In this document: positions 14,261-32,070 of the stretch, piece by piece
How the letters are laid out: every line of letters begins with the position of its first letter
Position numbering within the stretch: the first letter of the stretch is position 1
Source of the DNA: Gammaproteobacteria bacterium
GTDB taxonomy: Bacteria; Pseudomonadota; Gammaproteobacteria; SZUA-140
Direction: 5' to 3'
Length of the DNA: 34,177 nucleotides
NCBI GenBank assembly: GCA_021648525.1
Contig: JAKISP010000043.1
Span: 1 to 34,177 of the forward strand
The notes under the pieces: model-generated
The model's database searches: none
Told to the model about the DNA's origin: nothing
What the model saw: the letters and a program-made list of their open reading frames with translations, nothing else
Program-made: the position numbers and the translations under genes

Positions 14261-15634
14261 GTGGCGTTATCGCTTTGGAAAAAGTGCCTTGATCACCTTG
14301 AAAGCGAACTTTCTGCGCAGCAATTCAATACGTGGATAAGACCACTGCATGTGGCTGAAACTGCTGATTCTTTAAGAATTTTAGCACCAAACCGTTTTGT
14401 CCTTGATTGGGTTAAAGAGCGTTTTCTCGAAAAAATCATAACAATCTTAAACAAATTCAATGACTCTGCTGAGCCACTCAGTATCATTCTAGAAATTGGC
14501 ACTAAAAAAATTGGCGCTGGACCAAAGACAGCACCTAAAACCGTGACTGAGCCGTCAAAGAAAAATGAACCCGCTTCATTTGCACCAAAAGCAGCTGGGA
14601 TTGAAATCAATCATGTTTCAAGTCTACAACCGGGTTTTACTTTTGAATCATTTGTAGAGGGTAAATCAAACCAGTTAGCTCGTGCTGCCGCTGCACAGGT
14701 TGCCGAAAATCCAGGTAACGCCTATAACCCTTTGTTTATTTATGGTGATTCAGGCCTTGGTAAAACGCATCTAATGCATGCCGTTGGCAATTCAATGATT
14801 GCAAAAAACCCTAAAGCACGTGTCGTTTACATTCATTCTGAGCGTTTCGTGGGTGATATGGTACGAGGCCTGCAACACAATGCGATCAATGATTTCAAAC
14901 GTTACTATCGTTCTGTTGATGCGTTACTAATTGATGATATTCAGTTTTTTGCTAAAAAAGAGCGTTCTCAGGAAGAGTTTTTTCACACCTTTAATGCATT
15001 ATTAGAAGGCCAGAAACAGGTGATCATGACCTGTGATCGTTACCCCAAAGAGGTCGGTGGTCTGGAAGAGCGCCTTAAATCTCGTTTTGGCTGGGGATTA
15101 ACTGCATTGATCGAACCACCTGAGCTTGAAACCAGTGTTGCGATCCTGATCAGCAAGGCGGCTCAATCACGCGTAAACCTCAGTCAGGAAGTTGCCTTCT
15201 TTATTGCTAAACGAATTCGTTCTAATGTTCGTGAGCTTGAAGGTGCTATGCGCCGTGTGATCGCAACATCACGTTTTACTGGCCAGGCTATTACGGTCGA
15301 TTTTACCAAGGAAGCGCTCAAAGACCTGCTTGCACTGCAGGACAAGCTAGTCACCATCGAAAATATTCAAAAAACGGTGGCTGACTATTATAAAATTAGA
15401 GTAGCAGACCTTTTATCAAAACGACGCTCTCGTTCTGTTGCTCGTCCTCGTCAGATGGCAATGGCACTGTCGAAGGAACTAACAAGCCATAGCCTGCCTG
15501 AAATTGGCGATGCATTTGGTGGCCGTGACCACACCACTGTGTTGCATGGTTGCCGTAAAGTAAAAGAATTAAAAGAAAGTGATTTACGTATTCATGAAGA
15601 CTATGCCAATCTGTTGAGAACGCTATCAACATGA
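14261..15634 (+). CDS. dnaA: Chromosomal replication initiator DnaA
   Basis: 457 residues. It binds DnaA boxes at oriC and opens the duplex. Domain I (1-85) begins [25 protein letters not shown] in overlapping form. A short linker follows. The AAA+ domain has Walker A GDSGLGKT (162-169) and Walker [10 protein letters not shown]. Domain IV carries the DNA-binding signature [15 protein letters not shown] near residue 420. The start is GTG at 14261 with GGAG seven nt upstream, and the encoded ALSLWKKC matches the family start. The upstream gap to rpmH has no convincing DnaA box, while the downstream gap does. Confidence 0.98.
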
Positions 15635-30632: not shown

Positions 30633-30980
30633 TTACTCAGATAGCTTTTCAGAACAGGCAACGCAGTACTCACTTTCTGGCACTAGCATTAAACGTGCAA
30701 AAGGGATTTCAACGAGACACGCTTCGCACTCATTGTATTCAGCACAGTCTATTGTTGGCAGGGTTTGGGTGAGTTTTGCGAGTCGAACCTTAGCTGCATT
30801 CAGTGCTGTCTGATTGGCACTTCTGGTATTGATCGCGTCCATCCGGCTGAGGCGACCAATGGCATTATCCGGTGAGATTGGTTGTGTCATCGCCTCAAGC
30901 CCAGAAATATCTTCCTGCAGTTGAAGGATATCGGCTTCGATTTTAGCTTTAAGTTGAGTGGTTTGTGTTGGCGTTAACAC
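30633..30980 (-). CDS. DksA/TraR-type C4 zinc-finger protein
   Basis: 115 residues, shorter than DksA (about 151). An N-terminal helical hairpin (about 6-72) includes IGRLSRMDAIN. A C-terminal TraR/DksA zinc finger follows with C85, C88, C106 and C109 (ECEAC ... YCVAC). DksA-family proteins enter the RNA polymerase secondary channel and modulate initiation with ppGpp. The DxxDxA tip motif of DksA is not evident; SRMDA is the nearest match, so the activity may differ. It lies downstream of yajQ with a terminator between them and converges on fbp. Confidence 0.82.
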   Translation of the reverse strand: MLTPTQTTQLKAKIEADILQLQEDISGLEAMTQPISPDNAIGRLSRMDAINTRSANQTALNAAKVRLAKLTQTLPTIDCAEYNECEACLVEIPFARLMLVPESEYCVACSEKLSE

Positions 30981-31048: not shown

Positions 31049-31537
31049 CTAATCGCGGAAGTTTTCATATTGCAATGGAAGCTCAAGATCAGACTCGCGG
31101 AAAAGCGCGATGGCCTGTTGCAGGTCATCACGCTTCTTGCCAGTAATACGAACCTTTTCACCCTGAATCGCAGCCTGTACTTTAAGCCTGGACTCTTTGG
31201 TGAGTTTTACTAGTTTCTTTGCGAATACTGAATCAAGCCCCTGTTGCAGATTGAGTGCCTGGTGAACTTCTTTCCCCTGGGTAACAGAGTTATCCGTCTT
31301 TAGGCAACCCAGGTCAATGCCACGTTTTGAAAGCTTACTGTGAAGGATGCTGGTCATCTGTTGCAACTGAAAAGCACTCTCAGCATGCATCATGATGAGC
31401 GAATCTTTTTCCTTCAATTCAAAGCGTGCGTTGCTTCCTTTGAAGTCAAAGCGTGTACTGACTTCTTTATTGGCCTGGGCAACGGCGTTGTTGACCTCAT
31501 GCAGGTCAACTTCTGAGACGACATCAAATGATGGCAT
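31049..31537 (-). CDS. yajQ: YajQ family nucleotide-binding protein
   Basis: 162 residues, normal length. It starts MPSFDVVSEVDLHEVNNAVAQ and contains STRFDFKGSNARFELK, LSKRGIDLGCLK, LVKLTKESRLKVQAAIQGEK and VRITGKKRDDLQQAIALFR, ending PLQYENFRD. YajQ proteins bind nucleotides; one from Xanthomonas is a cyclic-di-GMP receptor acting with a transcription factor. The gene follows the histone-fold gene on the same strand with a 34-nt gap, so the two may be cotranscribed. Confidence 0.96.
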   Translation of the reverse strand: MPSFDVVSEVDLHEVNNAVAQANKEVSTRFDFKGSNARFELKEKDSLIMMHAESAFQLQQMTSILHSKLSKRGIDLGCLKTDNSVTQGKEVHQALNLQQGLDSVFAKKLVKLTKESRLKVQAAIQGEKVRITGKKRDDLQQAIALFRESDLELPLQYENFRD

Positions 31538-31571: not shown

Positions 31572-31952
31572 TTAAGAGAGATCACGATCCATCACAGTTT
31601 TGCGGCGATCTTTCTGCGCATTGGCAATGGCATCATCACATAGTTTGGCAATGATGCCAGAGAGTGCAGGCACAACATTGCCTGCTGTACTCATGCCGTC
31701 AGATTTTTCTTTGATATAAGCTTTAAGCTTAGAGGTGACTACCAACGCATCATGAGTACCGGTATCGCTTTCGAAGTCGCGATCCATCACCGTTTTACGA
31801 CGATCTTTAGTCGTGTTCTCAATAGCAGCATCACAACGGGTGCGAATAAGATCCGAAAGTGCTGGTGCGAAGTTACCCGCAGTGCTCATGCCATCAGATT
31901 TTTCTTTTATGTAGCCTTTGATTTTAGAGATTACTACCAGTGTTTCGCTCAT
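31572..31952 (-). CDS. Tandem histone-fold protein (two near-identical repeats)
   Basis: 126 residues made of two copies of a 57-residue unit, residues 5-61 and 70-126, 41 of 57 positions identical, joined by SDTGTHDA. Each unit reads as helix 1 (LVVxSKxKxYIKEK), loop SDGMSTAGN, a long helix 2 (PALSxxIxxxCDxAIxN) and the loop/helix 3 start RRKTVMDRD (51-59 and 116-124). That order and the RKT...D pattern match the histone fold (compare GRKTIKAED in archaeal HMf). Helix 3 looks short. Single-unit relatives exist in bacteria; the tandem form could fold as an intramolecular dimer. No signal peptide. It could bind DNA or act as a protein dimerisation module. The family assignment is inferred from pattern only. 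Confidence 0.7.
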   Translation of the reverse strand: MSETLVVISKIKGYIKEKSDGMSTAGNFAPALSDLIRTRCDAAIENTTKDRRKTVMDRDFESDTGTHDALVVTSKLKAYIKEKSDGMSTAGNVVPALSGIIAKLCDDAIANAQKDRRKTVMDRDLS

Positions 31953-32070
31953 TTTTACTTCTCCAAAAAAGTATTTAAATTGTTGACGGCCACTATCAGG
32001 TAAGCCGTTGGGTTTCGATTGTACGCCATTCAGAAATTAAATCACATGGTAAAACGAGGGGTTAAGTGGA

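Follow-up and report, generated by a model that had tools for sequence, protein, structure and literature searches.

A tandem histone of the HBb type, predicted from homology, encoded next to yajQ in one gammaproteobacterial genus

We describe a gene predicted to encode two fused histones in a single chain. It lies on the minus strand of a 34,177-nucleotide contig from a gammaproteobacterium (JAKISP010000043.1, assembly GCA_021648525.1; this whole stretch is referred to below as the window), in an open reading frame at 31572-31952 that starts with ATG and encodes 126 residues. By homology, its product is an alpha3-truncated "bacterial dimer" (HBb-type) histone in tandem. The interpretation we favor, and regard as probable, is that this doublet is a nucleoid-associated alpha3 HBb-type histone derived from a singlet by tandem duplication, which would form a covalent intrachain pseudodimer and bend DNA beside HU and IHF. 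The parts of the gene are as follows (residue numbers 8, 27 and 38 in HBb numbering):

31572..31952, minus strand: tandem (doublet) alpha3/HBb-type histone gene, 126 aa, assigned by homology; present in 8 of 10 genomes of the genus
31773..31952, minus strand: histone unit 1, residues 1-60, with I8, F27 and R38
31749..31772, minus strand: linker ESDTGTHD, 8 residues, joining units 1 and 2
31575..31748, minus strand: histone unit 2, residues 69-126, with T8, V27 and L38; the DNA-contact residues of unit 1 are also kept

The internal repeat is plain. BLASTP aligned residues 1-60 with 66-126 without gaps (41 of 58 identical, E 3e-29), and in strict register 41 of 56 residues are identical, which bears out the two-unit repeat with 41 identical positions claimed in a preliminary description of this DNA. 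That description had also read the units as histone folds, a reading upheld by homology to crystallized histones. Searched as a single sequence, the doublet matched HBb in its crystal structures 8cmp and 8fvx (E 4e-8, with the whole unit covered) and HLp of Leptospira (9qt0) at E 7e-7. When 18 units, taken from the window and from its relatives, were built into a profile, it matched HBb (8e-17), HLp (1e-14) and HTkC, an archaeal histone (9f2c; 2e-9). The profile search against histone families that had been proposed as a check placed the whole protein in the Pfam family of archaeal histones and NF-Y, CBFD_NFYB_HMF, with an E of 1.6e-5 and a score that exceeds the gathering threshold. Because this homology is to solved structures (HBb and HLp), we assign each unit, from its sequence, to the alpha3-truncated kind of histone.

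The sequence motifs of this type are present: R51, K52, T53 and D58 (the RKTxxxD motif and RD clamp) and the alpha1 lysines K10, K12 and K16 are invariant in both units. By alignment, alpha2 would have the same length as in HBb, and each unit stops one residue past D58, as the matched HBb segment does; the helix ends are thus predicted from alignment, the model at hand being of low confidence. The protein has a computed pI of 8.6 and only two cysteines, one per unit. We found no face-to-face (FtF) signature, which is R48/N52 at the dimer-dimer contact (PMC11390915); Asn and Asp align with the R-x-x-x-N of HLp. Nor did we find an N-terminal match to the zinc finger of ZZ histones, and searches of Pfam and NCBIfam to a limit of E 1 gave no match to DUF1931. 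The preliminary description had supposed that loss of most of helix 3 alters the dimer interface. This needs correction: truncation of helix 3 characterizes all alpha3 histones, and HBb, which shares it, dimerizes nonetheless (PMC11317129). The family lacks the nucleosomal tetramer contact, and the short helix is no bar to dimers.

Structure prediction says little about the fold. AlphaFold2 modeled the doublet from a thin alignment of 8 rows at pLDDT 59, with four helices roughly at histone positions; Foldseek and VIA-align searches with this low-confidence model returned unrelated helical bundles and no histone. Unit 2 alone, from a thin alignment of 18 rows, reached pLDDT 75 and pTM 0.43, and Foldseek gave no useful match for this model, also of low confidence. 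Thin alignments of few, similar rows are the likely reason for the weak models, which we take to be uninformative rather than evidence against a histone fold. In terms of a double histone fold (DHF), the chain holds two folds by homology, and their intrachain pairing is not seen in the pLDDT 59 model.

We then compared the two units at the residues that could govern pairing. Position 38, a dimer-interface residue in HBb, is Leu or Met in all 13 singlets and mostly Leu, Ile or Val in unit 2. In unit 1 it is never Leu: it is Arg in 6/6 gammaproteobacterial sequences and Ala, Ser, Asn, Gln or Thr in 29/29 sequences of a Bdellovibrionota lineage that also carries doublets. All 35 unit 1 sequences have Phe27, which is absent from every unit 2 and every singlet; 33 of the 35 have an aliphatic residue at position 8, where unit 2 has Thr, Ala or Ser. 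When every position at which the gammaproteobacterial units differ was taken as a control, parallel similarity exceeded crossed similarity only modestly (2.9 vs 2.1), so the asymmetry depends on the few positions named above, chosen after the data had been seen. The recurrence of unit-specific residues at 8, 27 and 38 in both lineages suggests that unit 1 is tuned for obligate pairing with unit 2, and this unit-specific interface pattern makes a putative tandem pseudodimer within one chain plausible.

We propose the following mechanism. An ancestral HBb-type singlet would have been duplicated in tandem, and the two units would pair within one chain as a pseudodimer that corresponds to the homodimer of HBb, residues 8, 27 and 38 making unit 1 pair with unit 2 and not with itself. 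One chain would then present two L1-L2 loop pairs and two alpha1 N-termini, the elements with which HBb grips minor grooves and bends DNA, and the pseudodimer may bend DNA likewise. It would act alongside HU/IHF-family proteins, of which the window's genome has four genes, and not as their replacement. The units might instead pair with other chains, as domain-swapped dimers or daisy chains, so that the doublet cross-links or coats DNA. The linker would suit such an arrangement, being only 8 residues in all six gammaproteobacterial doublets measured and shorter than the 10-11 residues of Bdellovibrionota doublets, as would the absence of a resolved pseudodimer in the low-confidence AlphaFold model. 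Those tandem histone folds that have been characterized are, however, reported as intramolecular pseudodimers (PMC13088155), and we regard pairing between chains as unlikely.

The intrachain pseudodimer is expected to bind DNA, as the contact residues known from HBb-DNA structures (PMC11317129) are largely kept. Both units retain S9, K10, K12, K16, T23, K52, T53 and R57 together with the R51/D58 clamp. In both, Ser takes the place of N22 and Ala that of S24; unit 2 still has T8, for which unit 1 has Ile. Bacterial double histone folds of the DUF1931 type are pseudodimers that lack DNA-binding residues (PMC12701072, PMC13088155). That precedent, the loss of T8 from unit 1, and the constant adjacency to yajQ described below would fit a doublet that has likewise taken on some role apart from DNA binding. 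Against such a shift, neither unit has lost any of the eight contact residues or the clamp in the aligned genus members, and the computed pI is basic; we give this reading even less credence than pairing between chains.

The gene lies in a conserved neighborhood, whose features are:

31049..31537, minus strand: yajQ (DUF520), 34 nt downstream of the histone gene on the same strand; adjacency kept in all doublet loci of the genus
32017..32040, minus strand: conserved upstream block TTAATTTCTGAATGGCGTACAATC, with a -10-like TACAAT at 32018-32023; nearly invariant in the 7 species aligned
14261..15634, plus strand: dnaA, marking the replication origin region; followed by dnaN, recF and gyrB

The histone gene is directly upstream of yajQ in all doublet loci of the genus, and fbp, lgt and thyA come next where the contig extends. 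With a gap of 34 nt in the window, co-transcription of the two genes is likely. The upstream block was not reported by a consensus promoter scan; its conservation across 7 species nevertheless makes it a probable promoter of the histone gene. The ribosome-binding site, GGAGAAG, is strong and also nearly invariant in the 7 species. An inverted pair, CGGC...GCCG, lies in the conserved leader at 31953-32040 and may form a hairpin with a regulatory role. At 30633-30980, a small DksA/TraR zinc-finger protein is encoded after yajQ on the same strand, as in some members of the genus; in other members no such gene was found at that place. In the window, 16 kb separate the end of dnaA from the histone gene, and in two other species the distance is about 10.5 and 12.4 kb, so the earlier placement near the origin was right in the three genomes checked (dnaA 10-16 kb away).

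Within the genus, the doublet is conserved. Its eight carriers are the window's genome, six others with both units in frame, and one in which the gene is frameshifted; the two genomes without a match are incomplete assemblies (66 and 86%). The halves share 65-74% DNA identity across the genus (71% in the window), and different codons are used at about half of the identical residues (21 of 41 in the window). The duplication is thus old and conserved, and of the "recent or conserved duplication" in the preliminary description only the second term stands. Between species, dN/dS over the gene is about 0.02-0.08, with both units constrained. One of the six others with both units in frame lacks the usual start: in this genome (L024, CALZHD010000016.1, 4980-5010), a deletion of about 50 bases, real or misassembled, removes the ribosome-binding site, the start codon and the first residues. 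The frameshifted copy (L025, QIJH01000235.1, 5001-5480) is split in unit 1; because the adjoining yajQ is split too, we attribute this to assembly or sequencing error rather than to a pseudogene. The relatives named here are metagenome-assembled genomes, one of them frameshifted, but that the doublet is a duplicated singlet created in assembly or annotation is hardly credible when both units are in frame in seven separate assemblies, the halves have diverged at silent sites and dN/dS is low.

Beyond the genus, the doublet is rare. Among 398 evenly drawn genomes of Pseudomonadota, only the window's genome gave a match at E 1e-12, which supports the earlier claim of rarity in gammaproteobacteria, and within the class Gammaproteobacteria we saw doublets in the window's own genus only. 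Among 369 genomes of the class, singlets of about 62 residues occur in 10, not counting two genomes of the window's genus. On the question, raised earlier, of whether relatives carry one unit or two, relatives within the genus carry two, and sister genera of the family, like scattered gammaproteobacterial families, have singlets only. In seven genomes the family singlet is found away from yajQ, ahead of a fabA-like and a ketoacyl-synthase gene; in loci L036-L042, the fabA-like gene and then the ketoacyl-synthase gene consistently follow it. Full-length HBb-type doublets recur in another phylum, in 46 of 129 genomes of the order of a Bacteriovoracaceae metagenome-assembled genome (L026, Bdellovibrionota); none was found in 240 other genomes drawn from Bdellovibrionota outside that order. 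In many genomes of this order another open frame, of about 150-190 aa, also gives a single-unit histone match; ZZ histones might be expected to have that length, and some of these frames occur alongside a doublet.

Several origins were considered. Searches of phages, plasmids and viral contigs found no relative of the doublet, and a mobile-element origin is therefore without support. Duplication in place of the family singlet is also unsupported, because the singlet sits at a different, conserved locus. The best tree, built from 55-59 columns (too few to settle the history), joins gammaproteobacterial units 1 and 2 (98/89) next to two gammaproteobacterial singlets (89/83). A one-residue insertion in loop 1 is common to both gammaproteobacterial units only; together, the insertion and the grouping favor a separate gammaproteobacterial duplication. 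We also considered transfer of the doublet from Bdellovibrionota: set against the grouping in the best tree, a common origin with unit 1 grouped across phyla was not rejected (p-AU 0.51-0.56, or 0.25 without columns 8, 27 and 38). We tentatively suggest, at somewhat below even confidence, that tandem DNA-binding HBb-type histones arose independently in the gammaproteobacterial genus and the Bdellovibrionota order and converged on one asymmetric interface, with a mostly aliphatic residue 8, Phe27 and a non-Leu residue 38 in unit 1.

Each unit is a full-length homologue of HBb (Bd0055) of Bdellovibrio bacteriovorus (8CMP, 8FVX, 9EZZ, 9F0E), keeps most of its DNA contacts and, like HBb, ends just past the RKTVMxRD signature. 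Unlike HBb and other alpha3 histones, which have a single homodimerizing fold, the chain fuses two non-identical units, in the window as well as in those members of the genus whose copy is intact, with one more residue in loop 1 and a unit 1 altered at 8, 27 and 38. The doublets of the Bdellovibrionota order (~129-136 aa) are likewise tandem HBb-type units with similar unit 1 changes at these positions; they differ in the longer linker, in having no loop-1 insertion, and in a unit 1 that ends in RKTVMG(K/R)DF. Gammaproteobacterial singlets of the same family (L010-L014, L016, L017) are 51-60% identical to the matching unit and differ in having one unit of ~62 aa and in lying upstream of fabA-like/ketoacyl-synthase genes, not yajQ. 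The doublet of Methanopyrus kandleri (HMk, 1F1E) and viral and haloarchaeal doublets are also tandem histone folds that form a pseudodimer, but they are nucleosomal-type histones with longer helices. Among bacterial proteins, DUF1931 (1WWI, Thermus; 1R4V, Aquifex) also places two histone folds in one chain, and it is the only double histone fold in bacteria that the reviews consulted describe (PMC12701072, PMC13088155). Schwab et al. describe bacterial dimers and make no mention of tandem ones, and Hocher et al. count a doublet size class without naming HBb-type doublets. We found no description of HBb-type doublets in the open-licence PMC literature; the supplementary table of Hocher et al. 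may list members. As judged from its sequence, the tandem HBb-type doublet differs from the described bacterial double histones in keeping its DNA contacts, and it is new relative to DUF1931 because those proteins lack DNA-binding residues (PMC12701072, PMC13088155).

The doublet offers a single-gene, single-chain system in which to test how homodimeric histones turn heterodimeric. It also allows a test of the HBb dimer as the functional unit, and the study of a histone working beside HU and IHF in a gammaproteobacterium. If independent origin and convergence were true, the protein would be an obligate pseudo-heterodimeric bacterial histone, and nature would here have repeated the transition by which homodimeric histones became heterodimeric.
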